64,000 bases of DNA from an uncultured Lachnospiraceae bacterium. GTDB lineage: Bacteria; Bacillota; Clostridia; Lachnospirales; Lachnospiraceae. The notes below the pieces were generated by a model that was not told the origin of the DNA, made no database searches, and worked only from the letters and a program-made list of their open reading frames with translations. Where the stretch lies: NCBI GenBank assembly GCA_944381635.1, contig CALWLY010000002.1, positions 1 through 64,000 of the forward strand, in the 5' to 3' direction. Positions 4,713 through 31,562 of the stretch are shown piece by piece (positions within the stretch are counted from its first letter, which is position 1; each line of letters opens with the position of its first letter). A program made the position numbers and the translations under genes.

Positions 4713-4715
4713 GGG

Positions 4716-4748
4716 AAAGGAAGGGTACCGACATACCCTTCCTTTTTT
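4716..4748 (+). terminator. Rho-independent terminator
   Basis: AAAGGAAGGGTA pairs with TACCCTTCCTTT around a six-base loop, ending in a T run directly after the stop of the membrane-protein gene. Confidence 0.85.
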
Positions 4749-4916
4749 CATACATTAGAAAAGTTACCGATGCGCGAGATTATGCCTGGAGAGGAACAGA
4801 AAGACTATGAATTTATGATTTTATTCTGAAAATTTTCTGGAAAATCCAAAAAAATTACCAGAGAATATTTGTGAAACAAGTATAATGAAGGTAGAATGTT
4901 TTTGGAGGTATTAGTG

Positions 4917-5897
4917 ATGCAGGGAGAAGTAAGTGCTTTAGAAAATATATTTTCCAAAGTGGACAGAAACGAAGACCTGACCAGGGAAGATGCGCTTGTA
5001 TTGTTAAAGATAGAGAATCGCTCTGATGACTTTTATCGGCTTTTATCAAAAGCCAATGAATTAAGTCAGAAAGAATACGGAAACAAAGGATATGTATTTG
5101 CACAGATTGGTCTTAACAGTGCGCCATGTCCGGGAAACTGTAAATTCTGCTCTATGGGATGTGAAAATTTCATGGTGGAAGAGGAAACGGAAAAAAGCAT
5201 GGAAGAAGTAGTGGAAGAAGCCGGGAGAGCACTTGCGCAAAACATTGACGCCCTGTTTCTTATGACAACTGCTGATTATGATATTGAAAAATATATCGAA
5301 ATTTCTCGGCAGGTAAAGAAAATTATGCCGCCGGATGTGATGCTTATCGCCAATATTGGAGACTTTGATCTCAAAACGGCAAAGAAGCTGAAAGAAACCG
5401 GATTTACCGGTATTTATCACATTGTACGTTTAAATGAAGGAATTGACACTGCACTGGATCCCGCACAGCGAATCCAGACGCTTGACGCTATTCGGGATGC
5501 AGGACTTGAATTGATTTATTGTGTGGAGCCTATCGGGCCGGAACACACCTATGAGCAGATTGCGGAGGAAATGTTCCGTGCAAGGGAGTACCATGTGGAT
5601 ATTATGGCATGCATGAAACGAGTGGGAGTAGAAGGAACACCTTTGTTTGACAGGGGCGAGATCACGGATTTGGAGCTGACAAAAATAGTTGCTGCAGCTC
5701 GTCTTGTGACAAGACCTAAAAAATCCATGAATGTGCATGAACCTAAGCAGATGGCTCTGTTAGCCGGTGTGAACCAGTTATATGCCGAGATTGGAATCAA
5801 CCCCAGAGATTGTGCGGTAGAGACGGGAAATAACAGAGGATTTTCCATTGCAGCGGTAAAAGATATGTTAAGACAAGTTGGTTATACCACAAAATAA
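4917..5897 (+). CDS. Radical SAM protein, BioB/HydE-like, in a methyltransferase-like cluster
   Basis: A 326-residue protein with the radical SAM cluster motif CPGNCKFC (CxxxCxxC) at about residue 70, preceded by a short helical N-terminal part as in BioB and HydE. The rest fits a TIM barrel (GDFDLKTAKKLKETGFTGIYHIVRLNEG, VEPIGPEHTYEQI). The start at 4917 is supported by GGAGG at 4904-4908; the ATG at 4896 precedes that site. A TATAAT at 4881-4886 could be a -10, though no good -35 is visible. The stop lies 33 bases before the UroD-thioredoxin gene, so the two are probably co-transcribed. The substrate is unknown. The neighbourhood suggests work on a methyl, sulfur or metal cofactor reaction rather than biotin synthesis, since no other bio gene is nearby. 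Confidence 0.8.
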   Translation: MQGEVSALENIFSKVDRNEDLTREDALVLLKIENRSDDFYRLLSKANELSQKEYGNKGYVFAQIGLNSAPCPGNCKFCSMGCENFMVEEETEKSMEEVVEEAGRALAQNIDALFLMTTADYDIEKYIEISRQVKKIMPPDVMLIANIGDFDLKTAKKLKETGFTGIYHIVRLNEGIDTALDPAQRIQTLDAIRDAGLELIYCVEPIGPEHTYEQIAEEMFRAREYHVDIMACMKRVGVEGTPLFDRGEITDLELTKIVAAARLVTRPKKSMNVHEPKQMALLAGVNQLYAEIGINPRDCAVETGNNRGFSIAAVKDMLRQVGYTTK

Positions 5898-9639: not shown

Positions 9640-9998
9640 TAAAATAAAAACTGTGAAAAGGAATAGTAGGAGGAAAGTTTCTCAGAGAGCTGTCGGATGG
9701 TGCGAGACAGTGAAACGTAACTTTGAACTGGCCTTTGAGTTTCCATGGTGAACAGAAGCTGCAAAATGTTTTTTGATTTCACGAGAAAAGAGCATTTTTC
9801 CAGTGATTAGTAACTAGGGACGGGTATTCCCGTTACAGAATTTAAGTGCATGAAAAGACAGGCTGGCAGAAACAACTTTTATATGTTTCTTTTATAAAAA
9901 GATTTAGCAAAATGTCCTGGTGTTTTCATGAAATAGAGTGGTACCGCGGATATTACCCCTTTCGTCTCTATCTTGTTGGAGAAGAAAGGGGTTTTTTA
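9640..9998 (+). promoter_or_regulatory. T-box riboswitch (leucine) with intrinsic terminator
   Basis: Class features of a T-box leader are present in order. An AGTA-type motif and AGAGAGC box lie near 9664-9690, and a GGATGGTGCGAGACAG element follows. The specifier region GAACTGGCC has CTG (9728-9730) as the leucine codon, and the antiterminator T-box is GTGGTACCGCGG (9938-9949). The terminator stem pairs ACCCCTTTC (9955-9963) with GAAAGGGGT (9984-9992) and ends in six Ts. By family knowledge, uncharged tRNA-Leu pairs with the specifier and T-box and permits leuS transcription. Confidence 0.93.
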
Positions 9999-10047: not shown

Positions 10048-12465
10048 ATGAAAATGGCATATGAGCCTAAAAATGTGGAAAAGAAATGGCAGAAGATTTG
10101 GGAAGATGAAAAAGCTTTCGAGGCTACAAATGATTTTTCAAAGCCTAAATACTACTGTCTGGTAGAATTCCCTTATCCGTCCGGACAGGGACTTCATGTA
10201 GGTCATCCCCGTCCGTATACGGCGCTGGATATCGTGGCAAGAAAAAGAAGAATGGAAGGCTACAACGTACTTTATCCTATGGGATGGGATGCTTTTGGAC
10301 TTCCCACTGAAAACTATGCGATCAAAAATAAAGTGCATCCTAAGATTGTTACTAAAAACAATGTGCATCGCTTTAAAGAGCAGCTTCAGGCTTTGGGATA
10401 TTCTTTTGACTGGGACAGAGAGATCAACACTACAGATCCCAACTATTATAAATGGACCCAGTGGATTTTCCTGAAACTGTTTAAGGCAGGACTGGCTTAC
10501 AAATCAGAGATGCCCATCAACTGGTGTACATCCTGTAAGGTCGGTCTGGCAAACGAAGAAGTGGTAAACGGCGTATGTGAGCGCTGCGGAAGCGAAGTAG
10601 TGCGCAAAGTCAAGAGCCAGTGGATGTTAAAGATTACAGAGTATGCGGATAAGCTGATTGACGGTCTTGACGGTGTGGATTATATCGAGAGAGTAAAAGT
10701 TTCTCAGAAAAACTGGATTGGCCGGTCTCAGGGCGCTGAGGTAGATTTCCTGATCAAAGGAAAAGAAGAAAAACTTCGCATTTATACAACAAGACCGGAT
10801 ACTTTGTTCGGCGTTACCTATATGGTACTTTCCCCGGAACACCCCTACATTGACCAGTTTGCAGATGAAATCAAAAACATGGACGAAATCCGTGCTTACC
10901 GTGAACAGGCGGCGAGAAAATCTGATTTTGAACGTGCAGAACTTGCAAAAGATAAGACCGGTGTTATGATTGACGGACTGTCTGCCGTAAACCCTGTAAA
11001 CGGAAAAGAGATTCCGATCTGGATTTCCGACTACGTTCTTATGAGCTACGGCACGGGTGCGATCATGGCTGTTCCTGCTCATGATGAAAGAGACTGGGAG
11101 TTCGCAAAGAAATTTAACATGCCGATCATTCAGGTTGTGGAAAGCAGCCAGGGTCCGGTCGATGTAAACGAAGCTGCCTTCACGGATGTGGCTACGGGAA
11201 AACTTGTAAACTCCGGATTCCTGAACGGCATGGAAGTGGCAGAAGCTAAAAAAGCAATCATTGGTTTCCTGGAAGAGAAAGGCATCGGCACACCCAAGAA
11301 AAACTATAAACTCAGAGACTGGGTGTTCTCAAGACAGCGCTACTGGGGAGAACCTATTCCGATCATTCACTGTGAGAAATGCGGTTATGTTCCGGTACCT
11401 GAAAACGAGCTTCCTCTGGAACTTCCTGATGTAGACAGCTATATGCCTACAGATAACGGCGAGTCACCTCTGGCAGCTATGAGAGACTGGGTGGAGACTA
11501 CATGTCCCTGCTGCGGCGGAAAGGCAGAGAGAGAGACAGATACCATGCCTCAGTGGGCAGGTTCTTCCTGGTATTACCTGCGTTACATCGATCCTCACAA
11601 CGATGAAGCTCTGGCAAGTCCGGAAGCTTTGAAATACTGGCTGCCCGTTGACTGGTATAACGGAGGAATGGAGCACACAACTTTGCATCTTCTTTATTCC
11701 CGTTTCTGGCATAAATTCCTTTATGACCAGGGCGTTGTTCCTACTTCGGAACCTTACCAGAAGAGAACTTCTCACGGCATGATCCTGGGTGAGAACGGTG
11801 AAAAGATGAGTAAATCCCGCGGAAACGTGGTAAACCCGGATGACATTGTCAATGAGTTTGGCGCAGATACACTGCGTACTTATGAAATGTTCATCGGCGC
11901 CTTTGATCTGAGCGCTGCATGGAGCAACGAAGGTGTAAAAGGCTGCCGCCGTTTCCTGGATCGTGTATGGAAACTCCAGGATATTGTGACAGAGGAAGAG
12001 GGATATTCCAAGGAACTGGAAACCAAAATGCATCAGACCATCAAAAAAGTTTCCAACGATTATGAAAGTCTGAAATACAATACCGGTATTGCTGCCATGA
12101 TGTCTCTGATCAACGACTTCAACCGCGTAGGAAAAATCACAAAAGACGAATTCAGAACATTCCTGATTCTGTTAAACCCGGTAGCACCTCATATGACAGA
12201 AGAGCTGTGGGAAATGATGAATTACGGCGGACGTCTCTATCAGGCACAGTGGCCTTCCTACGACGAAGCGAAAACCGTGGAATCTGTGGTGGAAATCGGT
12301 ATCCAGATCAATGGAAAAATGCGCGGAACCGTTAAGGTGGCTGCGGATATCAGCAAAGAAGACGCAATTGCAGCTGCAAAAGAGGCAGTTGCCGATAAAT
12401 TGACCGGAAACATTGTAAAAGAAATTTATGTTCCGGGACGTCTGGTAAATATTGTTCAGAAATAA
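10048..12465 (+). CDS. leuS: Leucyl-tRNA synthetase
   Basis: An 805-residue class Ia synthetase of normal bacterial length that charges tRNA-Leu. The HIGH motif is HVGH (within [18 protein letters not shown]) and the KMSKS motif is KMSKS ([10 protein letters not shown]). A CP1 editing domain lies between them ([31 protein letters not shown]) together with zinc-binding cysteines (CTSCKVG...CERCGSEV and CEKCG...CPCCGG). The start has AGGAGGT eight bases upstream. Expression is controlled by the leucine T-box directly upstream, and a terminator follows at 12522. Confidence 0.98.
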
Positions 12466-18989: not shown

Positions 18990-19086
18990 TTCCGGTTGAA
19001 CATAAGAATTTTTTGCTTATTTGAATTTGCAGGGCTGAGGCGTATTGTCCCCTGTACACTGACGCTATGGACTATCCGGATAAGAA

Positions 19087-19113
19087 ACCAGAGCGGGAAA
19101 CAGTCATAAAATA
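19087..19113 (+). promoter_or_regulatory. Possible SigK/SigE promoter of the split subtilase
   Basis: AC (19087-19088, context AACC as in mACm), 16 bases, then CATAAAATA (19105-19113). This fits the SigK consensus fully, and the -10 also fits SigE in 7 of 8 positions. Transcription would begin about 18 bases before the ATG at 19137, leaving room for the AAAGGAA ribosome binding site. Confidence 0.5.
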
Positions 19114-19610
19114 GAAGAAAAAAGGAAATTTTGTCGATGGACCGGGTAAGAAGAGTTGTACATGCAGAAGATGTTGGCTATACCGGAAAAGGCATCAATG
19201 TTGCGGTTCTGGATACAGGAATAGCAGGTCACAGGGATTTTTCAGGACGAATCCTTCAATTTAAAGATTTTGTGGAAAATCAGAAGAGCCCTTATGATGA
19301 CAGCGGACATGGCACACATGTGGCCGGATGTCTTGGGGGAGACGGGAAGATGTCCCGTGGAAAGTTCCGGGGGATTGCTCCGGAATGCGGTATTATCGTC
19401 GGAAAAGTGCTGGATCGCATCGGAGAAGGCTCTGCCAGCCGGATGATAGACGGAATCGAGTGGATTCTTTCTATAAGGAAAGACTACGATATTCGTATTT
19501 TAAATATATCAGTGGGAATCGGAGAGATCAGAGAAAAGCAGGAAGAAAAGAAGCTGCTTGACTGGCTGGAACGAGCCTGGAAGGAAGGAATCTTCGTTGT
19601 GGTAGCCGCG

Positions 19611-19613
19611 GGG
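19611..19613. other. Left attachment core (attL) in the subtilase gene
   Basis: GGG (a Gly codon in VAAG) is the point where protease homology is lost. The same GGG at 31128-31130 precedes the rest of the protease. Only these three bases are shared at the junction, as is usual for serine recombinases, which need a short (two-base) crossover core. Confidence 0.7.
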
Positions 19614-19640
19614 GATCGTGAAATAATAGGGATCGTCTAC

Positions 19641-19669
19641 TTGACAAAAAGAAGGTATTGGAATATCAT
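19641..19669 (+). promoter_or_regulatory. SigA promoter of the fab/acc operon
   Basis: TTGACA (19641-19646), a 17-base spacer and TATCAT (19664-19669). It lies only 27 bases inside the left end of the element, so the operon does not depend on protease transcription. Confidence 0.8.
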
Positions 19670-19670
19670 T

Positions 19671-19687
19671 ACTTTGATATTCAAAAT
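19671..19687. promoter_or_regulatory. FabT-like operator
   Basis: The 17-mer ACTTTGATATTCAAAAT contains the palindrome TTTGA-TAT-TCAAA and sits one base after the -10, over the expected start site. The streptococcal FabT box is ANTTTGATTATCAAATT, and all but three positions agree. This is a classical place for a repressor. It suggests control by a MarR-type FabT repressor that senses acyl-ACP; no fabT gene lies in this window. Confidence 0.6.
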
Positions 19688-19753
19688 ATTTATAATGAAA
19701 AGATAATACGCGATAAAAAATCATTGAAAAAGACAAAATGAAGGAGCATGATT

Positions 19754-20680
19754 ATGAGCAAGGTTGCATTTATTTTTCCGGGACAGGGCGCACAGGTTTG
19801 CGGCATGGGCCAGGAATTTTATGAAAACAGTGAGACGGCAAAACAGATTTTTGACAAAGCCGGAGAATGGCTGGGATTTTCCATGACGGAACTGTGCTTT
19901 ACGCCCAATGACAGATTGGATATCACAGAATATACACAGCCGGCTATGGTGACAGCTGAAGTTGCCATGATGCGTGTACTTGAGGAAAACGGCGTCCATG
20001 CAGACATGGCGGCCGGACTTTCTCTTGGCGAGTACAGCGCCCTGGTGGCAGCCGGCGTTATGAACGAAGAAGATGCAATCCGTACCGTAAGAGAACGCGG
20101 CATCCTGATGCAGGAAGCGGTTCCCGCCGGAGAAGGCGCCATGGCAGCAGTATTGGCCCTGGATGCTGTCAAAATTGAAGAAGTAACGGAAAGTATGGAA
20201 GGGGTATGGATTGCAAACTACAACTGCCCTGGCCAGATTGTTATTTCCGGGGAGACAGAAGCGGTTAAAGAAGCGGCTGAACGGCTGAAAGAGGCAGGGG
20301 CCAAAAGATGTGTGATGTTAAACGTCAGCGGACCGTTTCATTCCGGAATGCTTGTGGAAGCAGGCAGAAAGCTGGGAGAAGTTCTGGACGAAGTTTCCAT
20401 CAGCAAACCCGTGATTCCTTACATCGCAAATGTAAATGCTGAACTTATCACAGAAGAAAGTCAGATCAAAGATCTGCTCTGCAGACAGGTATCCTCTTCT
20501 GTAAGATGGGAGCAGAGTGTGAGAAAGATGCTGGACGAGGGCGTGGATGTTTTTGTGGAGATCGGTCCCGGAAAGACTCTGTCATCTTTCGTGAAAAAGA
20601 TCAAAAGAGATGCTCTTGTAGTAAACGTAGAGCATGTTGCTGATATTGCAAAAGTGAAAGAAGCTCTGGGTATTGTCTGA
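19754..20680 (+). CDS. fabD: Malonyl-CoA:ACP transacylase
   Basis: A 308-residue FabD. It has the N-terminal FPGQGAQ motif, the nucleophile motif GLSLGEYSAL (Ser in GLSLG), and the catalytic His in NVSGPFHSGML. A C-terminal EIGPGKTLSSFVKK completes the acyltransferase fold. It moves malonyl groups from CoA to acyl carrier protein. The start at 19754 has AAGGAG at seven bases; the ATG at 19748 is too close to it. It is the first gene of the operon behind the FabT-like operator and lies inside the recombinase element. acpP and fabH, which often come first in such operons, are absent. Confidence 0.96.
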   Translation: MSKVAFIFPGQGAQVCGMGQEFYENSETAKQIFDKAGEWLGFSMTELCFTPNDRLDITEYTQPAMVTAEVAMMRVLEENGVHADMAAGLSLGEYSALVAAGVMNEEDAIRTVRERGILMQEAVPAGEGAMAAVLALDAVKIEEVTESMEGVWIANYNCPGQIVISGETEAVKEAAERLKEAGAKRCVMLNVSGPFHSGMLVEAGRKLGEVLDEVSISKPVIPYIANVNAELITEESQIKDLLCRQVSSSVRWEQSVRKMLDEGVDVFVEIGPGKTLSSFVKKIKRDALVVNVEHVADIAKVKEALGIV

Positions 20681-20710
20681 GCAAAAAGTCTGTTTTAATT
20701 GGAGGAAATC

Positions 20711-21454
20711 ATGAAATTAGAAGGTAAAGTAGCAGTTGTAACAGGAGCCAGCAGAGGAATCGGAAGAGAGATCGCACTGGGACTGGCAAAGGAAGGCGCT
20801 TATGTCATCGTAAACTATCTGGGAAATGCGGCAAAAGCAGAGGAAGTTGTTTCTCTGATCAAAGAGCAGGGCGGTGACGCGGAAGCGATTGGCTGCAATG
20901 TGTCAGACTTTGAAAAGGCAGCTGAATTTTTCAATGATATTATCGCAAGACATAAAAGAGTGGATATTCTTGTGAACAATGCAGGAATCACAAGAGATAA
21001 CCTTCTCATGAAAATGACTGAGGAGGAATACGACAGCGTTCTGGATACCAACTTAAAAGGAGCTTTCTGCTGTATGCGCCATGTTTCCAGACAGATGTTA
21101 AAGCAGAGAGGCGGAAGAATCATCAACATTTCTTCTGTTTCCGGTATATCCGGAAATCCGGGACAGGCAAATTATTGTGCCTCCAAAGCAGGTATCATCG
21201 GCATGACAAAGTCTGTGGCAAGAGAGCTGGCAAGCAGAGGCATTACCGTCAATGCAGTAGCTCCCGGATTTATTTCCACAGATATGACAGAAGTTCTCGC
21301 AGATTCTGTGAAGGAAGCTACTATGAATCAGATTCCTATGAGACGTTTCGGTAAACCGGAGGACGTGGCAGCGGCAGTTGTATTCCTGGCATCCGACAGT
21401 GCTGCTTATATTACAGGACAGGTTCTCTCCGTAGACGGCGGACTGGCAATGTAG
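20711..21454 (+). CDS. fabG: 3-oxoacyl-ACP reductase
   Basis: A 247-residue short-chain dehydrogenase. It has the NADPH motif [12 protein letters not shown], the NNAG strand, the catalytic Ser in ISSVSG, and YCASK (Tyr-Lys pair). The C-terminus [12 protein letters not shown] is typical of FabG. It performs the first reduction of fatty-acid elongation. GGAGG precedes the ATG at 20711 by five bases. It lies 30 bases after fabD and 17 before accB. In many related operons fabF follows fabG; it is missing here. Confidence 0.95.
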
Positions 21455-21471
21455 GAAGTAAAGGAGTGTTA

Positions 21472-21993
21472 ATGGCAATGGAAATGAATGAAATCATGCA
21501 GTTGATCCAGGCGGTCTCTGCTTATGGACTTACCAGCTTTGAACTGGAAGAAGGCAATCTTAAGATTTCTCTGAAAAGAGAATATGGAAAAAAAGAAGGT
21601 GTGACAGAAGCTGCCGGGGAGATGGCGGAAGCTGTGAAGATAGAAAATCCTGCAGTAGTTGTGGAAACAAAAGCTTCTTCTTTAGTAAAAGAAGAGGTAA
21701 AGGAAACAGCTGTTGTGGCAGCAGAAAAAACAGAGGAAAAAGAACCGTCCATTCCTGCGGGAAATGTGGTGACATCTCCTCTTGTAGGTGTGTTTTACAG
21801 TGCTCCTGCGCCGGATAAGGATGACTATGTGAAAGTGGGAGATACGGTAAAAAAAGGTCAGGTTCTGGGATTGATTGAAGCGATGAAGCTGATGAACGAA
21901 ATTGAGAGCGAATACGATGGCGTAGTAGAGGCAATCCTTGCAGAAAATGAAGGAAATGTAGAATACGGCCAGCCGTTATTTGTGATCCGCTAA
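21472..21993 (+). CDS. accB: Biotin carboxyl carrier protein of acetyl-CoA carboxylase
   Basis: A 173-residue BCCP. The N-terminus is MAMEMNEIMQLIQAVSAYGLTSFELEEG. A Glu/Val/Ala-rich flexible linker (about 40-95) and the biotinyl domain follow, with the modified Lys in EAMKLMNE. The start at 21472 has AAGGAG at five bases, and GTG 21466 would lie within that site. BCCP carries carboxybiotin between AccC and the carboxyltransferase. The next gene is accC; fabZ, commonly found between them, is not here. Confidence 0.95.
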   Translation: MAMEMNEIMQLIQAVSAYGLTSFELEEGNLKISLKREYGKKEGVTEAAGEMAEAVKIENPAVVVETKASSLVKEEVKETAVVAAEKTEEKEPSIPAGNVVTSPLVGVFYSAPAPDKDDYVKVGDTVKKGQVLGLIEAMKLMNEIESEYDGVVEAILAENEGNVEYGQPLFVIR

Positions 21994-22051
21994 GCGGATA
22001 AAAAAGAAAGAACGAACAGTTTCTGAAAGTTGGAAAGGTACAGGGATTTAT

Positions 22052-23404
22052 ATGTTTTCAAAAATATTGGTGGCAAACCGCGGTGAAATAGCTGTGCGCA
22101 TCATTCGTGCGTGCAGGGAAATGGGCATTCAGACCGTCGCAGTTTATTCCGAGGCAGACAAGGATGCACTTCACGCTATGCTGGCAGACGAAGCGGTTTG
22201 CATTGGTCCGGCTGCTTCTTCCGGCAGTTACCTGAATATGGAACAGATTTTGTCAGCTACAGTCATTACGAAAGCAGACGCCATCCATCCGGGTTTTGGT
22301 TTCCTTTCAGAAAATTCCAGATTTGCAAAACTCTGCGAACAGTGCAATATTACCTTTATCGGGCCTTCCGGCGACATTATTGACCGTATGGGGAATAAAT
22401 CGGAAGCCAGAAAGACTATGATGGAAGCCGGCGTACCGGTAGTTCCCGGAACGAAAGAACCGGTGTTTACTGCTGAGGAGGGGCTTAGCTTTGCGAAGGA
22501 GATCGGCTTTCCTGTTATGATCAAGGCTTCTTCCGGCGGCGGCGGAAAAGGAATGCGTGTGGCAGCCAACGAAGAAGAATTTCTGGCTCATTTTCAGAGC
22601 GCGCAGCTGGAATCTGTCAAAAGCTTTTCTGATGACGCTATGTATATTGAAAAATATGTGAATCATCCAAAACATGTGGAATTTCAGATTCTCGCAGACA
22701 AACACGGGAATGTAGTACATATCGGAGAGCGTGACTGCTCCATACAGAGAAGACACCAGAAAGTTCTGGAAGAATCTCCCTGTGTGGCTATCGATGAAAA
22801 CCTTCGCCGCAAGATGGGAGAAACTGCCGTTCGGGCTGCCAAAGCGGTAGGCTACGAGAACGCAGGAACGATTGAATTCCTCTTAGATGCGGATAAGAAC
22901 TTTTATTTTATGGAGATGAACACAAGAATCCAGGTGGAGCATCCTGTTACAGAAATGGTTTCCGGTCTGGACCTGATCAAAGAACAGATCCGCATTGCAG
23001 CAGGCGAGCCTTTGAGTGTAGCGCAGGATGACATTCATCTGTCAGGCCATGCGATTGAATGCCGCATCAATGCGGAAAATCCGCAGAAACATTTCATGCC
23101 TTGTCCGGGCAAGATCACAAATCTTCATCTTCCGGGAGGAAACGGAGTGCGTGTGGATACTCATATTTATACAGACTATGTAGTTCCGCCCTATTATGAT
23201 TCCATGCTGCTTAAGCTGATCGTTCATGGAAAAGACAGGGATGAAGCCATCAGCAAAATGAGAAGTGCGCTGGGAGAGCTTATCATTGAAGGAATTGATA
23301 CGAATCTGGCTTTCCAGTATGAAATTCTAAATCATGAAGTATTTGAAAATGGAGATACCAATACAGGTTTCATTCCGGATTATTTTCCTCAATACGGAGA
23401 GTAG
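22052..23404 (+). CDS. accC: Biotin carboxylase subunit of acetyl-CoA carboxylase
   Basis: A 450-residue biotin carboxylase with the ATP-grasp fold. It starts MFSKILVANRGEIAVRIIRACRE. The glycine-rich ATP loop is SSGGGGKGMR, and HVEFQILADKHGNVVHIGERDCSIQRRHQK and the EMNTRIQVEHPVTE metal/biotin region are intact. It carboxylates biotin on AccB with ATP and bicarbonate. It is part of the accB-accC-accDA series in which all four ACC activities are present. Confidence 0.97.
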   Translation: MFSKILVANRGEIAVRIIRACREMGIQTVAVYSEADKDALHAMLADEAVCIGPAASSGSYLNMEQILSATVITKADAIHPGFGFLSENSRFAKLCEQCNITFIGPSGDIIDRMGNKSEARKTMMEAGVPVVPGTKEPVFTAEEGLSFAKEIGFPVMIKASSGGGGKGMRVAANEEEFLAHFQSAQLESVKSFSDDAMYIEKYVNHPKHVEFQILADKHGNVVHIGERDCSIQRRHQKVLEESPCVAIDENLRRKMGETAVRAAKAVGYENAGTIEFLLDADKNFYFMEMNTRIQVEHPVTEMVSGLDLIKEQIRIAAGEPLSVAQDDIHLSGHAIECRINAENPQKHFMPCPGKITNLHLPGGNGVRVDTHIYTDYVVPPYYDSMLLKLIVHGKDRDEAISKMRSALGELIIEGIDTNLAFQYEILNHEVFENGDTNTGFIPDYFPQYGE

Positions 23405-23466
23405 GAGATTTTTCAAATAAACGAGGGTGTCTGCGTGCAGACGCTGTCAAAAAGGAGAGACGCTAA

Positions 23467-25296
23467 ATGTTGCGCAACATGTTTAAAAAGACTTACACCA
23501 AGCTGGAACCGGAGCGCAAATCTCCGGAAGAAGGACGTCAGCCCGAGATACCGGAAGGATTATGGCGTAAGTGTAATAAATGTCGAAAACCTATTTATGT
23601 GGACGATGTAAAGCAGAATTTCTATGTCTGCCCGAAATGTGGAGGTTACTTCCGGGTACATGCGTATCGCCGGATTGAAATGGTGATCGATGAGGGAACC
23701 TTTGAAGAGTGGGACAAAGAGATGCCTTTTGCAAATCCTCTGAATTTTCCCGGATATGAGAAAAAGACGGCAGCTGTAAAAGAAAAGACAAACCTTTCCG
23801 AAGCGATTGTCACCGGAAAGGGTAAAATAAACGGTCTTGATACTGTGATCGGAGTGTGCGATTCCCGCTTTTTCATGAGCAGCATGGGAAGCATTGTGGG
23901 AGAGAAGATTACAAGAGCTGTGGAGAGAGCCACGGAGCAGAAGCTTTCGGTTATTCTGTTTGCCTGCTCAGGAGGAGCCAGAATGCAGGAGGGTATGGTT
24001 TCTTTGATGCAGATGGCGAAAACATCGGCGGCGATAAAGAAACATCACGAAGCAGGACTTTTATATATTACCTACCTAACAGACCCTACAACGGGCGGCG
24101 TGACGGCAAGTTTTGGCATGTTGGGAGATGTGATCCTGGCAGAACCCGGAGCTTTGATCGGTTTTGCGGGTCCCCGCGTAATTGAGCAGACAATTCGTCA
24201 GAAACTTCCGGAAGGATTTCAGAGAGCAGAGTTCCTTTTAGAGCACGGTTTTATAGACAAAATTGTAGAGAGAAAAGACTGCAAGAGCACATTGGCCAAA
24301 ATATTGCTTCTTCACAATCCGGAAGCAGCTATGGCGGCTGATGCAGAAAAGAAAGCAGAAGCATCTGACCGGAAAGAGACTGTTTCTGTTATGGCAGAGG
24401 AAGTTTCCGGAAAAAGAGGGAAAGAAGAAAAATCTTCCCGCAGGAAACGCAGAAAAGATGCAGAGGCTGATTTCACTGGGTTTGAAAAGACAGAGGAAGG
24501 AAAGAAGCCTGCCTCCGCCTGGGACTGTGTCCTTTTATCCAGGAGAAACGACAGACCTACCGCCAGAGATTACATCCAGTCATTGTTTGATGAGTTTATG
24601 GAATTCCACGGCGATCGTTATTTTGGGGATGACGGCGCAATTGTCGGCGGAGTTGCTCTTTTCCACGGTATTCCGGTTACGGTTATCGGTCAGCAGAAAG
24701 GGCGGAATACAAAAGAAAATCTGAAAACAAACTTCGGTATGCCCTCTCCGGAAGGGTATCGCAAAGCTTTGCGGCTTATGAGACAGGCTGAAAAGTTCGG
24801 CCGTCCCATCATCTGCTTTGTGGATACGCCGGGTGCATTCTGCGGTATGGAGGCAGAGGAGCGGGGACAGGGTGAAGCAATCGCCCGCAACCTGTTTGAA
24901 ATGTCTGATATGAAGGTCCCGATCCTTTCTGTCGTGATCGGCGAAGGGGGAAGCGGAGGAGCGCTTGCCATGGCCATGGCAAATGAAGTGTGGATGTTGG
25001 AAAACAGTATTTATTCCATTCTTTCCCCGGAAGGCTTTGCATCCATCTTGTGGAAAGACAGCACAAAAGCTCCGGATGCGGCAAAAGTTATGAAGATCAC
25101 GGCAAAGGATCTTAAGAAACTTGGAATCATTGAAGAGATTATTCCGGAAGAAGAGCCGGCTGTTCTTGAGAATCTGGAAACACTGACAGGCATTATGAGT
25201 GAAAAACTGACAGGATTTCTGGATTCCATGAAAACGATGAGCGGGGAAGAAATTGCAGAAGCCAGATACCAGCGGTTTCGAAAAATAGGAGCATAA
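23467..25296 (+). CDS. accDA: Fused acetyl-CoA carboxyltransferase, beta plus alpha subunits
   Basis: A 609-residue protein. Residues 1 to about 285 are AccD, with its zinc ribbon (CNKC...CPKC) and crotonase-type core ([27 protein letters not shown]). A basic and acidic linker (about 290-350) leads to AccA ([48 protein letters not shown]). Separate genes are the rule in Escherichia and Bacillus, while fusions occur in some clostridia. The fusion enforces 1:1 stoichiometry. The enzyme transfers CO2 from carboxybiotin to acetyl-CoA, giving malonyl-CoA for FabD. Confidence 0.95.
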
Positions 25297-25317
25297 TCAG
25301 AAGGGACAGGAGACAGA

Positions 25318-26466
25318 ATGAATTTATATCAACCGTTGAAAATCGGAAAACTGACAGCGGAACGGCCGGTTATTCAGGGAGGAATGGGAATCGGCATCAG
25401 TTTGTCAAATCTGGCAGGCGCAGTGGCAAAGGCAGGGGGAGTCGGCATCATTTCTGCCGCACAGATAGGATTTCGGGAGGAGGATTTTGAAAAAAATCCT
25501 CTGGAAGCCAATATGAGAGCCATGGAATCAGAGTTCAAAAAAGCAAAAGCCATATCTGAGGGGAACGGCATTGTGGGATTTAATATTATGGTTGCCATGA
25601 AAAAGTACGAAAACTATGTGCGCGCAGCAGTGAAAGCGGGAGCCGATTTGATTATTTCCGGCGCAGGCCTTCCGGTAAAACTTCCGGAATATGCGGCATG
25701 CCCGGAAAAAGAAAGCCCGGAAGGGGCAACTTTGTTTGAGCGTATTGCCGCAAGAAAAACCATGCTTGCTCCTGTCGTTTCTTCCGTAAAGGCGGCCAGA
25801 GTTATCTGCCGTCTTTGGGACAGAAATTATAAAACAGCGCCGGATCTGCTGGTGGTGGAAGGACCTCTGGCAGGCGGTCATCTGGGATTTTCCAGGGAAG
25901 AACTGGCTGAATACGGAGCGGAAGGCAGCGACACCGCTCACACCTATCAGGCAGAAAAGTATGGAGAAGAAATCAAGGGAATCCTTAAAGTCGCACAGGA
26001 ATTCGGAGAAAAATACGGAAAAAAAATCCCGGTGGTAAGTGCCGGCGGTGTATTCGGAAGAGAAGATATGGCGGCGCAGATGGCATTAGGCGTGGACGGC
26101 GTACAGGTCGCAACACGATTTGTGACTACAAAAGAATGCGACGCTGCCGATGAATATAAAAAGGCTTATCTGAACGCGAAAGCAGAGGATGTGGAAATTG
26201 TAAACAGTCCGGTAGGAATGCCGGGAAGAGCCATCCGCAATGATTTTCTGATGAGGATCAAACAGATGCCTGAAAAGATTACGGCGTGTTTCCAATGCCT
26301 GGAGCATTGCAATCCGGCAACAATTCCCTATTGTATTACAAAGGCGCTGATTCATGCAGCTGTGGGAGATGTGAAAAACGGACTTCTGTTCTGCGGAAGC
26401 AATGTATATCGCTGCACAAAAATGGAAACTGTAGAAGAGATTATGAAAGATTTATGTGAAGCATAA
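25318..26466 (+). CDS. FabK/nitronate monooxygenase-family FMN enzyme
   Basis: A 382-residue flavoprotein of the FabK/2-nitropropane dioxygenase family. It starts PLKIGKLTAERPVIQGGMGIG. It has the FMN loops SGAGLP, EGPLAGGHLGF and SAGGVFGREDMAAQMALGVDGVQVATRF, and NSPVGMPGRA. It is longer than classical FabK (about 315). The extra C-terminal part has a cysteine group (CFQCLEHCNPATIPYC) that is also found in clostridial nitronate monooxygenases. Its place at the end of an ACC/FAS operon suggests enoyl-ACP reductase activity, but a nitronate or other oxidase role cannot be excluded from sequence. Confidence 0.82.
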   Translation: MNLYQPLKIGKLTAERPVIQGGMGIGISLSNLAGAVAKAGGVGIISAAQIGFREEDFEKNPLEANMRAMESEFKKAKAISEGNGIVGFNIMVAMKKYENYVRAAVKAGADLIISGAGLPVKLPEYAACPEKESPEGATLFERIAARKTMLAPVVSSVKAARVICRLWDRNYKTAPDLLVVEGPLAGGHLGFSREELAEYGAEGSDTAHTYQAEKYGEEIKGILKVAQEFGEKYGKKIPVVSAGGVFGREDMAAQMALGVDGVQVATRFVTTKECDAADEYKKAYLNAKAEDVEIVNSPVGMPGRAIRNDFLMRIKQMPEKITACFQCLEHCNPATIPYCITKALIHAAVGDVKNGLLFCGSNVYRCTKMETVEEIMKDLCEA

Positions 26467-26627
26467 AAACAGGGTGCTGCATAAACCGGAAACAGGGGTT
26501 TATTCTGTCATTTTTGTTCAAAAGGTAACGATTGTTCAAAAAATATGATAGAATAAACGTGACCTATCTGGTTATGAGGCACCCTTTTTTGGGCTTACAA
26601 TACAAAGCAGGAAAGAGAGAACAGTTA

Positions 26628-27599
26628 ATGAAGTTTTATTTTGCGCCGATGGAAGGAATTACAGGATATGTCTACAGAAGGGCTTACCATGAATTTTTTC
26701 CCGGTGTGGACAAATTTTTCACACCATTTCTGGCACCCAAACAGGAAAAACATATGAGCAGCAGAGAGAAAAATGACGTGCTGCCGGAACATAATCAGGG
26801 AATGTATACGGTCCCTCAGATCTTATGCAACCGTTCCGAAGATTTTATAAGAACAGCGAAAGAACTTTCTTCCATGGGGTATGAGGAAATCAATCTGAAT
26901 CTGGGCTGTCCATCTGCCACGGTTGTGACAAAGAAAAAAGGAGCAGGATTGTTGGGGGAACCGTTGCTTTTGGAACATTTTCTCGACGATATTTTTTCAG
27001 AGCTCTCCATAAAAATATCCATAAAGACCCGGTTGGGAATGGAAGATGGGGAGGAATTTGAAAATCTTCTTAAAATTTATAACCGTTTTCCGCTGCATGA
27101 GCTGATTGTTCATCCCAGAGTCCGGGAGGACTACTACAAAAAACCGGTGCGGATGGAATATTTTTCAATGGCTCTGGAAGAAAGCCGTTGTCCGGTCTGT
27201 TACAACGGCGATATCGCCACTTTAACGGACCTGAAAAACTGGGAACAAAAATATCCCCAGGAAGACCGTTGTATGTTGGGAAGAGGGCTTTTGACGACGC
27301 CCGGGCTGATTGCGCTGTACCAAAACGGACAGGAAATGAAAAAAGAACGCCTTTATGCCTTTCATCAGGCGTTGCTTTCCGGATACAGAGAGGTTTTATC
27401 CGGAGAGCGAAATGTGCTGTTTAAAATGAAGGAACTCTGGTTTTATATGCTGCCTAATTTCGCAGATGCCGAAAAGGCGGCAAAAAGAATCAGAAAGGCA
27501 GAAAGGATTTCAGAATATGAGGCAGCGGTGAGGATGCTTTTTGAAGAAGGGGAGTTTATTCCCTCTTCCTGCCGGGAGAAGCCGTATTATTTATGCTGA
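26628..27599 (+). CDS. tRNA-dihydrouridine synthase
   Basis: A 323-residue Dus enzyme. It starts FYFAPMEGITGYVYRRAY, with FMN-barrel motifs NLGCPSATVVTKKKGAGLL (catalytic Cys in GCPS) and IKTRLGMED. VYNGDI-type (VCYNGDIATLTDL) and GRGLLTTPGL segments follow. It reduces uridines in the tRNA D-loop. A 160-base gap with a weak inverted repeat (26481-26503) separates it from the operon before it, so it may have its own promoter. The upstream in-frame extension to 26532 lacks family similarity and is not included. It is an unexpected passenger in the recombinase element. Confidence 0.9.
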   Translation: MKFYFAPMEGITGYVYRRAYHEFFPGVDKFFTPFLAPKQEKHMSSREKNDVLPEHNQGMYTVPQILCNRSEDFIRTAKELSSMGYEEINLNLGCPSATVVTKKKGAGLLGEPLLLEHFLDDIFSELSIKISIKTRLGMEDGEEFENLLKIYNRFPLHELIVHPRVREDYYKKPVRMEYFSMALEESRCPVCYNGDIATLTDLKNWEQKYPQEDRCMLGRGLLTTPGLIALYQNGQEMKKERLYAFHQALLSGYREVLSGERNVLFKMKELWFYMLPNFADAEKAAKRIRKAERISEYEAAVRMLFEEGEFIPSSCREKPYYLC

Positions 27600-27677
27600 G
27601 ATTGGAGAAAATCAGTATCGAAGCATAAAGGACAAAGCAGGCGGAATAAATTGTAGAAAAAGAAAAGGCGGCAGCTC

Positions 27678-27896
27678 ATGAAAAAAAAACAGGATCTGAC
27701 AGATCACAGAGAGTCAGTGTTTATCCTTGACAAATACCGAACCCCGGATGGAAACCTGATTCTTCCGGATGAGACGGCAGCAAGATTAAGGCGTGATCTC
27801 CCTTCTGATTTTCGTTACAAAGATTTGCAGATCCATGTGGAATTTGAAGAAAATCAGCCGGATTTTGACTGGTGCATCCGAAAATACTTTGGCTGA
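27678..27896 (+). CDS. Small unknown protein before the recombinases
   Basis: A 72-residue, charged protein with no recognised domain (KKKQDLTDHRESVFILDKYRTPDGN...). It has no membrane segment. It lies between dus and the first recombinase, in the same direction and 37 bases upstream of it. A small accessory factor such as a directionality factor would be a natural thing at this place, but nothing in the sequence proves it. The ribosome binding site is weak (AAAGGCGG). Confidence 0.45.
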   Translation: MKKKQDLTDHRESVFILDKYRTPDGNLILPDETAARLRRDLPSDFRYKDLQIHVEFEENQPDFDWCIRKYFG

Positions 27897-27932
27897 ATCA
27901 TCGGAAGATTCTGTCATGGGCTTTAAAAAGGA

Positions 27933-29210
27933 ATGGAAGATTTCACAACCTTTCGGACGGCAGCCTACTACCGTCTTTCCAAAGAAGATGCGAAAGAGGA
28001 AAACGAAGAGAGCAACAGCATTCAAACTCAGAAAAAACTGATTGCAGGTTATATCGAGAGACATCCGGAATTTCTGCTGACTATGGAAATCTGTGACGAT
28101 GGCTATTCCGGATTGCATATGGACCGCCCGGGTATAAAAGAATTGTGGGAAGCAATATGCGGCGGAAGGATAGACTGTATTATTGTCAAAGATCTGTCCA
28201 GACTTGGCCGAAACTATATACAGACGGGTACCTGGCTGGAAAAAATATTTCCTTCGCTGGGTATCCGTTTTGTCGCAGTAAACGATGGCTATGACAGCTT
28301 TTTCTGCGATGATTTCTATAAAGATCTGATGCTTCCCTTTAAAAACATACTGAACGATGCTTACAGCCGCGATATTTCAGAAAAAGTGAAAAGCCACTTG
28401 AAGGCAAAGCGGGAAAACGGAGAATTTGTGAATCCTTTTCCCAGGTATGGTTTTGTGAGAAACCCTGCCAGTAAAAGCGATCTTCTGGCAGATGAAAAAG
28501 CTGCAGATATAGTTCAGGAAATTTTAAGAAGAAAGCTGGAGGGAGAGAGCATAAGAAAAATTACAGACGACCTGAATTTTAAAAATGTTCCATCCCCTCT
28601 TGCCTGGAAAAGGCAGAACGGATGCCAACTTAAGACTTCGTTTGACAAAACGGGAACACCCCGATGGACTCCAAGCGCGGTGCGCAGAATTTTGACAGAC
28701 GAATTGTATACAGGGATTCTAATTCAGGGCAAAAGTGTTTCGGGAAGTCTCAAAATAAAAAAGAGATTTTCCGTGCCGGAAGAGAAATGGAGCAGAACAG
28801 AAGGGAAAGTGGAGCCGTTTATAAACCGCTGGGATTTCGAAGCCGTACAGAGAGAACTTAAGATGGATACGAGAAAAGCGCCGGGAACAGAAAAATGCTA
28901 TCTGTTTTCAGGTTTTTGTATTTGCAAAGACTGCCAACAGGCCATGGTTCGAAGAGTTGGGGGGAAGCAAACGTTTCTTATCTGCTCCGGAAGAAAGGAT
29001 AAAAAAGGGTGTTCTTCCTGGCATCGTCTTCCCGAGGAGCAATTGAGGGAAGGCCTTCAAATGCTGCTCATACTCTATGGAATTGTTGCGCAAACACCCT
29101 ATACAGTCAAGCTGAATCGCAGAAGCCTGCTTTTGCTCGTAGAAAAAATAGAGGTGGAAGAGGGAAAAAGAGTGTGCATTGTCTTTCGTTTTGGAAAAAT
29201 TCGTGCATGA
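27933..29210 (+). CDS. Large serine recombinase 1 (with zinc ribbon)
   Basis: A 425-residue serine recombinase. The resolvase domain has the nucleophile Ser in AYYRLSKED and the active-site Arg motif DLSRLGRNY. The recombinase domain ends with WTPSAVRRILTDELYTGILIQGK, and a zinc ribbon follows (CICKDC...CSGRKDKKGC). It lacks only part of the long coiled coil of bigger family members. It is the first of three tandem recombinases. Thirteen bases separate it from the second. The start codon at 27933 has AAGGA too close for normal spacing, so it may be translated by coupling. It is predicted to cut and join the element ends at GGG. Confidence 0.9.
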   Translation: MEDFTTFRTAAYYRLSKEDAKEENEESNSIQTQKKLIAGYIERHPEFLLTMEICDDGYSGLHMDRPGIKELWEAICGGRIDCIIVKDLSRLGRNYIQTGTWLEKIFPSLGIRFVAVNDGYDSFFCDDFYKDLMLPFKNILNDAYSRDISEKVKSHLKAKRENGEFVNPFPRYGFVRNPASKSDLLADEKAADIVQEILRRKLEGESIRKITDDLNFKNVPSPLAWKRQNGCQLKTSFDKTGTPRWTPSAVRRILTDELYTGILIQGKSVSGSLKIKKRFSVPEEKWSRTEGKVEPFINRWDFEAVQRELKMDTRKAPGTEKCYLFSGFCICKDCQQAMVRRVGGKQTFLICSGRKDKKGCSSWHRLPEEQLREGLQMLLILYGIVAQTPYTVKLNRRSLLLLVEKIEVEEGKRVCIVFRFGKIRA

Positions 29211-29222
29211 AAGGGGAAGAGT

Positions 29223-30215
29223 ATGGCGAGGAAAAGCCGAAAAACAATATCCGGAAAGGCTGACGACAGGGAAGAATACAACCGGGAAGAGAAAACGGGA
29301 AAAAAAATATGGTCCACGGACCTTTATCTGCGCATTTCCCAGCGGGAGCCGGAGAGCAATTCTCTCAAAAATCAGGAAATTTTGCTCCGATCGTTTCTGA
29401 AAATCCATACGGAATGCAGGCTTCATAAAATCCGTAAAGACAACGGATGCAGCGGAACGGACTTTGCACGGAGAGCTTTTCAGGAAATGTTGGAAGACGT
29501 CAAAGAAGGAAAGACACAATGTATTATGGTAAAAGATTTATCCCGGCTTGGAAGAAATTATCTGGAGAGCGGATATTATCTGGAAATCGTGTTTCCTTTG
29601 TATCAGGTGCGGTTTCTTTCCTGCGAAGAAAGGTATGACAGTCTTACAGGAGAAAATGACCTGAGAACATTGTTCCTTCCTCTGAAAAACCTTTCCAATC
29701 AAAATTATGCGTTTGATATTTCCAAAAAGGTAAACAGCGCGTTTTTGACAATGAGAGAGGAAGGAAAACTTTTGCATCCACACGCAGTGTATGGCTATGT
29801 GCGCCAGGACGGAAACTGGACGCCGGATGGTAAAACAGCCGGAGTGGTGACTGAAATTTTCCGGGAGTTTGCAGAGGAAGAATGTTCCGTCTATGGAATT
29901 GTAAAAAAACTCAATGACAATGACGTATCCTCTCCCGGCAGACGGAGATACGAGCTGGGAATCAGCCGGGACGCATCGCTTTTAGATGCAAAGTGGAGTA
30001 AAAATGCTGTAAAAAGAATATTGACCAATCCGGTCTATATCGGATGCCTCATACAGGGTAAGTATCATCCATATAAAATCGGAAGCCATAAGATGGTTCC
30101 TGTAGAAAGGGAAAAATGGTATATTCACGAAAATCATCACCCGGCTCTTGTAAGCCGTGAACTTTTTCAAAAGGCGAGGGAGCGCTTACAAAGATGGAAA
30201 GAAAAAAAGGAATAA
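29223..30215 (+). CDS. Serine recombinase 2 (no zinc ribbon)
   Basis: A 330-residue protein. After a basic N-terminal tail of about 35 residues, the resolvase domain has its Ser in DLYLRISQRE and Arg motif DLSRLGRNY. The recombinase domain follows (HPHAVYGYVRQ, WSKNAVKRILTNPVYIGCLIQGK). It ends soon after HHPALVSRELFQKARERL, so the zinc ribbon and coiled coil of a full-length large serine recombinase are missing. Catalytic residues are intact. It overlaps the third gene by 22 bases. It may work together with its two neighbours rather than alone. Confidence 0.9.
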   Translation: MARKSRKTISGKADDREEYNREEKTGKKIWSTDLYLRISQREPESNSLKNQEILLRSFLKIHTECRLHKIRKDNGCSGTDFARRAFQEMLEDVKEGKTQCIMVKDLSRLGRNYLESGYYLEIVFPLYQVRFLSCEERYDSLTGENDLRTLFLPLKNLSNQNYAFDISKKVNSAFLTMREEGKLLHPHAVYGYVRQDGNWTPDGKTAGVVTEIFREFAEEECSVYGIVKKLNDNDVSSPGRRRYELGISRDASLLDAKWSKNAVKRILTNPVYIGCLIQGKYHPYKIGSHKMVPVEREKWYIHENHHPALVSRELFQKARERLQRWKEKKE

Positions 30216-31135
30216 TCTATGTGCGTATTTCCCGGGCAGAAGGGGAAAGCATTGCCAACCAACAAGCTTTTCTGGAAAATTTTCTCTCCAAAAAGGAGGA
30301 ATTTTCTGCGGAAAGCTTCCAAGTGATTGCAGATGAAGGATATACGGGAACAAATATGAATCGTCCGGGGATAAAAAAACTTCTTTCCATGGTGAGCAGG
30401 GAAGAAGTTTTCTGCATTGTTGTCAAGGATTTTTCCAGGTTCAGCCGTGATTATCTCATGACAGGCTACTATCTGGAACAATTTTTTCCTCAGAAAGGAA
30501 TCCGTTTTATTTCTGTGAACGATCATTATGACAGTGCCGGACTTGATGGGAGAGAAACAGAGAGGATTATACTCCAGGTCTTTCTCTATGACTGGTACAC
30601 AAGAGATTTATCCGGAAAAGTAAGGGCCGTAAAAAGGGCGCAGGCGGCCAAAGGGCTTTATATGGGAAGCAGACCTCCGTTCGGCTATGAAAAAAGAGAA
30701 AATTGTTTATATCCGGACGAAAAAAAAGCGCAGATTATAAAAGATATTTTTTCCCTGGCATCCTCCGGGATGACTGACGGAAGGATTGCGGCTAAATTAA
30801 ATCGAAACAAAATACCGCCGCCTTCCGGTTCCGGGGGCTGGAGAAGAGAGTCTGTGGCCTATATTCTGACTAATCCGGTCTATATAGGAACGGCAGTCAG
30901 TGGGAAAAGCAGCCGTCCCAATTTGAAATGTTCACGAAAAAAAACAAAGCCGGATGGCTGGATTTGCAGAAAAGCTGTACACGAACCGCTTGTTTCGGAG
31001 GAACTTTTTAAAAAAGCACAAATACAGAGAGCAAAACGAAGAAAAGAAAAGCCTGCTGACAAACGAGGTACAAAGCAGAAGACGGCACATTATGAGGCGT
31101 CCCTGTATCCCTTGTGGCTCACCATCCGGGAATAA
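30194..31135 (+). CDS. Serine recombinase 3 (no zinc ribbon), crossing the right element end
   Basis: A 313-residue protein. The resolvase domain has Ser in IIYVRISRAE and the Arg motif DFSRFSRDY (slightly divergent). The recombinase domain has MGSRPPFGYEK and WRRESVAYILTNPVYIGTAVSGK. There is no zinc ribbon; the tail is basic. The coding region passes the attachment core (31128-31130) and stops at 31133-31135 inside protease sequence. In an excised circle the ORF would instead end RGS and stop at a TGA from the left end (19619-19621), so the protein changes by only a residue or two. Confidence 0.9.
   Translation: MERKKGIIYVRISRAEGESIANQQAFLENFLSKKEEFSAESFQVIADEGYTGTNMNRPGIKKLLSMVSREEVFCIVVKDFSRFSRDYLMTGYYLEQFFPQKGIRFISVNDHYDSAGLDGRETERIILQVFLYDWYTRDLSGKVRAVKRAQAAKGLYMGSRPPFGYEKRENCLYPDEKKAQIIKDIFSLASSGMTDGRIAAKLNRNKIPPPSGSGGWRRESVAYILTNPVYIGTAVSGKSSRPNLKCSRKKTKPDGWICRKAVHEPLVSEELFKKAQIQRAKRRKEKPADKRGTKQKTAHYEASLYPLWLTIRE
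31128..31130. other. Right attachment core (attR)
   Basis: GGG, the codon before NNGPKPGS of the protease. Using it with the GGG at 19611-19613 restores the reading frame ...VVVAAGNNGPKPGSIS.... Other registers of the short G run would shift the frame and give an early stop. Confidence 0.7.
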
Positions 31136-31562
31136 CGGCCCCAAACCGGGAAGTATTTCGGCGCTGGGGAAAAGTGAGTACACGGTGGCTGTAGGCTGTC
31201 ATGATGGGATGGATTATCCCGACAGAAAGGGATCCTGTGAGGACTATTCCGGAAGAGGACCGTCGGAATTTGTGATGAAAAAGCCGGATCTGGTGGCTCC
31301 GGGAAGCAATATCGTTTCCTGCAATGCCGCCTGCGGAAAAAGTGGTGTGGGAAAGACAAAATCTTATATAGGAAAAAACGGCACATCCATGGCAACTCCC
31401 ATTGTATCGGGAGCCGTGGCGCTTTGTATGCAGAAGTTTCCGGAAGATACCAACGAGCAGATAAAACGCCGTCTGCTGTGGAGCTGCGAAGATTTGAAGG
31501 AACCCTGGAACAAGCAGGGATGGGGGATGCTACATGTGAGAAGAATGCTTTATGGAAATTAA
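31131..31562 (+). pseudogene. Subtilisin-like protease, 3' part of the interrupted gene
   Basis: Encodes 143 residues continuing the S8 fold. The oxyanion Asn is in NNGPKPGS, substrate-site strands include YTVAVGCHDG, DYSGRGP and PDLVAPGSNIVS, and the catalytic Ser is in NGTSMATPIVSGAVAL. The C-terminus is WNKQGWGMLHVRRML. The part has no start codon or ribosome binding site of its own here and is fused out of frame to recombinase sequence, so it should not be made unless the element leaves. No stop or frameshift is seen within it, which suggests it is still under selection. Confidence 0.88.

Follow-up and report, generated by a model that had tools for sequence, protein, structure and literature searches.

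A putative skin-like element with three serine recombinases and fatty-acid synthesis genes divides a subtilase gene of a Lachnospiraceae bacterium

Results

The split protease gene

The DNA studied here (the window) comprises bases 1-64000 of contig C2 (261,613 bp) of an uncultured Lachnospiraceae bacterium, a probable gut bacterium, whose genome amounts to 3.08 Mb in 49 contigs and is 98% complete. It contains a gene for a protease of the subtilase family (S8), into which an 11,517-bp element carrying fatty-acid synthesis genes and three serine recombinase genes is inserted (Table 1). The N-terminal half of the protease extends from the ATG at 19137 to 19613, comprises 159 codons and ends in VVVAAG, and the C-terminal half begins with NNGPKPGS. 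An earlier examination of the same letters without database searches (the sequence-only reading) had proposed a division of an S8 protease at this very point, and the Pfam S8 profile bears this out by matching both halves, at positions 1-174 in the open reading frame (ORF) 19131-19706 and at positions 151-288 in the ORF 30954-31562. The joint had been placed at a GGG common to both flanks and the insertion estimated at about 11.5 kb; the shared core and the size stand, and by the register of the inverted repeat described below the core is best placed at a GG at 19611-19612 and 31128-31129. When the host ends are fused at this GG, the 302 stop-free codons claimed previously are indeed obtained, and the predicted empty-site joint of the rebuilt gene is GCGGGGAATAAC. 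A restored frame alone is weak evidence, since any conservative insertion restores the frame upon leaving, and as proof of an excisable element it was rejected for the same reason.

Table 1. Features of the split protease locus and of the inserted element (positions in the window).
Feature	Position	Strand	Basis or remark
SigK-type promoter pattern AC-N16-CATAAAATA	19087..19113	+	5' of protease; consensus presumed, see text
Protease (S8 subtilase), N-terminal half with catalytic Asp and His	19137..19612	+	ORF translation, Pfam
Left GG crossover core (attL)	19611..19612		inverted-repeat register
Left inner att arm	19613..19634		pairs with 31106-31127 at 15/22
fabD	19748..20680	+	TIGR00128, 331 bits, cut-off 261
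fabG	20699..21454	+	TIGR01830, 353 bits, cut-off 298
accB	21466..21993	+	TIGR00531, 130 bits, cut-off 115
accC	22052..23404	+	TIGR00514, 713 bits, cut-off 627
accDA, fused in one ORF	23467..25296	+	accD and accA models above cut-offs
fabK-like (NMO family) enoyl-acyl carrier protein reductase	25318..26466	+	FabK model 109 bits, under cut-off 453
Dihydrouridine synthase (Dus) family	26532..27599	+	profile matches
72-amino-acid (aa) ORF, candidate directionality factor	27678..27896	+	only weakly DUF6870-like
R1 serine recombinase, 425 aa, with zinc ribbon	27933..29210	+	Pfam, tree, motif
R2 serine recombinase, 330 aa, without zinc ribbon	29223..30215	+	Pfam, tree, motif
R3 serine recombinase, 313 aa, without zinc ribbon	30194..31135	+	Pfam, tree, motif
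Right inner att arm	31106..31127		pairs with 19613-19634 at 15/22
Right GG crossover core (attR)	31128..31129		inverted-repeat register
Protease, C-terminal half with oxyanion Asn and catalytic Ser	31130..31562	+	ORF translation, Pfam

Unsplit relatives of the protease, which the sequence-only reading had suggested looking for, proved to be common; all relatives searched belong to genera other than that of the source genome, and the nearest proteases (80 named loci) stem mostly from metagenome assemblies labelled Lachnospiraceae. Within the source genome no unsplit copy was found, the only other match of the protease query being a 588-aa frame that is of Csp type by appearance. At 69 near-invariant columns, defined from 77 unsplit rows, the split protease of the window departs twice, those of three relatives described below once (G077), once (G306) and not at all (L134), and the unsplit rows themselves depart at 0-5. 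The sequence-only reading would have been contradicted by close relatives that possess only a decayed split form; the opposite is seen, as the halves of the split relatives are intact.

A SigK-type promoter pattern

A SigK-type promoter pattern, for which we assume the consensus of Bacillus, precedes the protease gene. Among unsplit relatives the pattern, with a spacing of 15-17, is found in 54/62 stretches and its -10 part in 59/62 (62 of 109 loci had a usable stretch 5' of the unsplit S8 gene, and these relatives are not independent), compared to 0.9% and 6.0%, respectively, of stretches with singly shuffled bases. As the two strands of the window together hold seven matches to the pattern, its weight rests on its position and conservation. 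One of the split copies (L134) possesses it as well. Judged from this pattern, the split protease is probably a late mother-cell sporulation gene. The genome contains an intact gene for SigK (NF004471, 278 bits, cut-off 252); a second model in this search, TIGR02846, stayed below its cut-off here and in every control genome. Further sigma factor matches resemble SigE, SigG and SigF in their rank and location, and spoIVA is intact, its product scoring above the SpoIVA cut-off.

In many relatives (L016, L117-L196) the -10 element upstream of the unsplit protease is situated inside an apparent hairpin with T residues behind it (CCCGGCATA...GCCGGGAGTTTTT); promoter and terminator thus seem to overlap there. 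Just 5' of the promoter in the window (19023-19072) lies a repeat of ~45 bp, with 31 more short matches on many contigs at ~80-97% identity, which is probably an intergenic repeat family.

Ends of the element

The inner arms of the two attachment (att) sites form an inverted repeat with 15/22 positions paired, as good a pairing being found in 0/20,000 random window pairs, and the host arms pair at 4/22. Inverted-repeat symmetry is a feature of the attP sites of serine integrases. Two further elements described below, one in spoVD of the same genome and one in the protease gene of G077, have inner arms paired at 17/22 (0/20,000 random pairs) and 14/22 (P 0.00045), respectively, and the host arms of the three elements (window, spoVD, G077) score 4, 5 and 8. 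In pairwise comparison the three left inner arms have 13 or 14 of 22 bases in common and the right ones 9 to 12. The att sites of the window element look intact. Its circle junction has no match in IMG/VR.

The recombinase triplet and a small ORF

Three serine recombinases with active sites had been noted at one end of the element; they occupy 27933-31135, and each retains the motif Y-x-R-[LIV]-S. R1 possesses resolvase, recombinase and zinc-ribbon domains, and the stop codon of R3 lies beyond the right core, within host sequence. Our recombinase tree holds 78 rows from 26 triplets, which were selected for their similarity to R3, irrespective of the target gene, and do not amount to a full survey; streptococcal sequences were left out. 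All 26 R3 form one clade (support 100/99) and all 26 R1 another (99/92); 25/26 R2 group together (90/92), the R2 of the spoVD element falling beside R1. The tree thereby assigns the window recombinases to a lineage of three-gene (triplet) integrases. The R1 proteins of the window and of the spoVD element are sisters (100/92), and the two R3 pair likewise with weaker support (80/85).

The triplet of G077 is equally short (425, 322 and 311 aa, R2 and R3 without zinc ribbon); R2 of the spoVD element (333 aa) has no zinc ribbon either. G077 is set apart from the window triplet by its R1, which falls inside another clade (97/82), and by its R2. Because R1 and R2 place the short G077 triplet apart, the recombinases were likely shortened more than once; this is not settled, as R3 does not fix the placement of G077, whose R3 has the shortest path to that of the window.

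IMG/VR yielded no relatives of R3 and a single contig (42%) for R1, and in phage and plasmid collections R3 matched 343 and 183 records, respectively, with identities below 60% among the ten matches listed for each. End overlap indicated circularity in 0/5 sequences with such recombinases (the IMG/VR contig and four faecal scaffolds). The 72-aa ORF between the cargo and R1 has no significant Pfam match (DUF6870, 3.9 bits) and an isoelectric point (pI) of 5.6.

Fatty-acid synthesis genes as cargo

The remainder of the element consists mainly of genes for fatty-acid synthesis, a cargo atypical of mobile DNA. Just inside its left end we take 19641..19669 (+) to be a vegetative (SigA-like) promoter of the fab genes and 19671..19687 to be a FabT-like operator, both recognised by eye, and a similar box precedes fabF on contig C18. 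Genome-wide copy counts, made for the fabD and fabF families only, showed fabD on the element to be the genome's single member of this Pfam family; of 31 genomes searched 26 gave a match, each of them one. Germ-line loss of the element should be lethal, because the element holds the only fabD.

In genome G018 the operon reads fabH, acpP, fabK, fabD, fabG, fabF, accB, fabZ, accC, accDA and a fabK-like gene (acpP and the fabK next to it being assigned by eye), an order that G014 shares from fabD onward. In the source genome acpP (by eye), fabF, fabZ and fabH remain at the ancestral locus on C18, whose flanking genes, judged by eye, are those of G018. Because the element-borne and the C18 gene sets interleave relative to the ancestral order, their arrangement suggests that the fab operon was divided by duplication and reciprocal loss and not moved as a block. 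Among the ORFs of 19613-31127 no conjugation or phage genes were recognised by eye (only some of these ORFs were profile-scanned), and the element shows no mobility genes except the recombinases; a prophage or conjugative element was rejected on this ground.

Outside the element, the window contains a T-box leader at 9644-9972 (+; Rfam, 124 bits), just 5' of a leucyl-tRNA synthetase-like ORF at 10048-12465.

A further interrupted gene in the source genome

An 8,192-bp element on contig C13 (locus L073) cuts the penicillin-binding protein gene spoVD. It contains a DUF6870 gene, a triplet, a sulfate-permease-family gene and one PHP-like gene (by eye, no Pfam match). The halves match the NCBIfam spoVD model (TIGR02214) at 3-167 (113 bits) and 171-558 (429 bits), and an unsplit relative scores 551 bits, all of them under the cut-off of 688. 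With the spoVD query, matches were obtained in 40/41 genomes, 33 of them (including the source genome) at E 1e-119 or better; the frame measures 419 aa in the source genome and 572-690 aa in the 32 other strong-match genomes (G005 with an internal TAG). No unsplit copy was found in the genome, the only other match being a paralogue at 38% identity. In an alignment with the 6/19 relatives' loci that yielded a frame, the split row departs at 7/235 invariant columns; unsplit rows, each left out in turn, depart at 4 to 33 of 239-268 columns.

Split genes in relatives

In G077, which belongs to another genus, the orthologous protease is split at the same codon as in the window by an element of 6,631 bp, whose cargo comprises a response regulator, a GHKL-domain kinase and a carbon-nitrogen hydrolase, and no fab genes. 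The protease of G306 is split at the catalytic DTG by ~5 kb with a triplet and a DUF6870-like ORF (by eye), and that of L134 (CATLHM010000003.1), likewise at DTG, by ~2.1 kb (3453-5592) holding a DUF6870 gene and R3 alone, which from its gene content is a candidate for a minimal intervening element. In L125 and L129 the C-terminal half follows the recombinases and the contigs start inside the element. Between R2 and the C-terminal half of L129 (JAMPGS010000123.1, 2966-3942) there is no R3; instead we found a weakly PIN-like ORF (under cut-off) together with a small ORF, and the two may form a toxin-antitoxin pair. Altogether, triplet-type recombinases occur at 4/110 protease loci (window, L125, L129, L134), 30 of the 110 having just 1.5 kb of flank.

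Starting from the 26 triplets, an interrupted gene was recognised at eight. Three split the orthologous protease (window, L221, L228), and L073 splits spoVD. C-terminal halves of Csp-type germination proteases lie 3' of R3 in L226, L229 and L234 (genomes G154, G296 and G219); their best NCBIfam match is CspBA or CspC, all under cut-off, and an N-terminal half was found for none of the three, in G296 after inspection of the upstream ORFs by eye. At L081 (G021:C29:35000-54000) a triplet element splits an M23 peptidase at HLGHD (~2440 and 13324), one stretch of the sequence being N. No interrupted gene was recognised at the remaining 18/26 triplets, several of whose contigs end soon after R3.

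Discussion

A probable domesticated element in a putative sporulation gene

We consider it likely, with a probability of about 70%, that the insertion is a domesticated skin-like element, which leaves a subtilase gene under SigK control when the mother cell sporulates; excision, its timing, and the recombinase and cofactor responsible are inferred. In growing cells the element would sit inside the protease gene. In the mother cell, the serine recombinases, probably aided by a small directionality factor, would recombine the two GG cores (attL x attR), release a circle of 11.5 kb and rebuild the 302-codon gene, and the related element should likewise rebuild spoVD. Our first-candidate recombinase is R3, because L134 keeps R3 alone, and R1 is the only one in the window with a zinc ribbon; the small partner may be the 72-aa ORF. 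The element has taken over half of the fatty-acid synthesis operon of its host. As loss of the circle would deprive a growing cell of fabD, only a terminal cell could tolerate excision, and the circle would remain there for some time. The assignment to the skin-like class made by the sequence-only reading agrees with the SigK-type promoter, the intact halves and the att sites. It is further favoured by the element with a related triplet in spoVD of the same genome, by the parallel splits of the protease in G077, G306 and L134, by the intact sigK and spoIVA, and by the division of the fab operon between element and ancestral locus. It requires amendment in that the recombinases belong to the triplet lineage rather than to the single-recombinase prophage type of skin or SPbeta, that two of the three are shortened, and that there is a housekeeping cargo, which that reading had not mentioned.

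Several observations weigh against programmed excision, and most of them are shared with an alternative in which triplet elements entered the protease gene and spoVD, lost their transfer genes and two recombinase ends and no longer leave, the halves being intact because the insertion is recent or sporulation is being lost. According to Pfam, the zinc-ribbon domain is absent from R2 and R3. A SigE/SigK-like pattern was found in only 1/10 stretches (L229) 5' of recombinases or small ORFs of eight elements, and no sporulation promoter was recognised 5' of R1, the 72-aa ORF or spoVD. The assembly contains no excised junction or circle (the N-terminal half with the left end matches in full only at C2). 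Triplets of streptococci, moreover, serve conjugative elements that simply disrupt genes, as far as the available passages describe them (PMC4701971). Besides these points, upstream of the split proteases of relatives G077 has a -10 match only and G306 neither part of the SigK pattern, the 72-aa ORF is at best weakly DUF6870-like, and the element may have entered the protease gene late, after acquiring the fab genes. Nevertheless, we regard such a stranded element as unlikely. The SigK-like gene and spoIVA are intact, the split rows deviate no more than the unsplit ones (0-2 versus 0-5 of 69 columns in the protease; 7/235 in spoVD), the att arms are conserved, the orthologous protease is hit in other genera with its halves intact, and recombinases as short as those of the window recur in G077.

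Two further explanations appear very improbable. A reversible on/off switch in growing cells would resemble yin, for which the passages available report excision in a fraction of the cells at every time point (PMC10747680), but a growing cell without the circle would lose its only fabD, and a promoter of SigK type suggests activity late in sporulation. Placement of a fab piece in the protease beside recombinase genes, whether by chromosomal rearrangement or by an error of assembly, would account for a cargo of ordinary chromosomal DNA whose operon lies elsewhere in relatives, but hardly for matching att arms around a common core at both ends, nor for two other elements of different content with the same end structure.

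Returning to the domesticated element, its history can be outlined more tentatively. Slightly short of an even chance, in our estimation, is that it captured a copy of the fab operon and became indispensable by reciprocal loss, and that triplet integrases, shrinking, were recruited repeatedly in this family as sporulation and germination switches. The spore line would then never lose the element, and the mother cell would transfer this half of the genes for lipid synthesis to a circle; the targets would include the protease, spoVD and Csp-type proteases, and the smallest switch would be the 2.1-kb form, which has a single recombinase and a single DUF6870 protein.

If excision is true, programmed gene rearrangement extends to Lachnospiraceae and to a late protease and spoVD, two genes in one genome; the removed DNA carries a growth gene, so that losing the element means cell death, and this illustrates a route by which such insertions become fixed. 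The related elements, the largest with a full triplet and the 2.1-kb one with just a recombinase and a DUF6870 gene, make the minimal parts of excision directly testable, and DUF6870, a family of unknown function, is a candidate family of directionality factors. It was not mentioned in the literature searched, which left most subscription papers outside its coverage; within the same coverage, no subtilase or spoVD split in this manner was found in titles and abstract openings.

Comparison with known intervening elements

The element is probably of a known kind, the gene-intervening elements of sporulating bacteria, here with a triplet-integrase module. Interrupted genes named in the accessible parts of the literature are sigK, spsM, gerE, spoVFB, spoVR, kamA and yabG (including PMC5595907, PMC10747680). 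The following comparisons are drawn from partial texts of the respective sources. One close system is gin in gerE of Bacillus cereus ATCC10987, a non-phage element with three serine recombinase genes and inverted-repeat att sites, which splits a mother-cell gene in frame (PMC5595907); its excision needs GirC and the 42-aa GirX, not GirAB. Compared by description, gin differs in its size of 28.6 kb, its target and host, and the position of girC apart from girAB; its excision has been demonstrated, whereas that of the window element is inferred, and the passages available do not describe essential vegetative genes on gin (PMC5595907).

The skin element in sigK of Clostridioides difficile also interrupts a mother-cell gene and has its recombinase, CD1231, just 5' of the 3' part of that gene (PMC5025042). 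It needs CD1231 together with the directionality factor CD1234, a protein of 72 aa and pI 5.5, which is, as described, similar in size and pI to the 72-aa ORF of the window (5.5 versus 5.6); in contrast, this skin is prophage-like, with one large serine recombinase and 19 genes (PMC5025042). The yin element of Clostridium botulinum interrupts yabG, a protease gene specific to sporulation, as the window protease also appears to be, and it leaves as a circle, but the protease is a cysteine protease and the element is prophage-like with one recombinase (PMC10747680). Finally, the triplet modules of streptococci likewise have three tandem serine recombinases in the same orientation that cluster by position in the triplet, and their insertion disrupts a protein gene between very short repeats; they differ in their attached conjugation modules and in their targets (mutT, traG, hsdM), without involvement of sporulation (PMC4701971).

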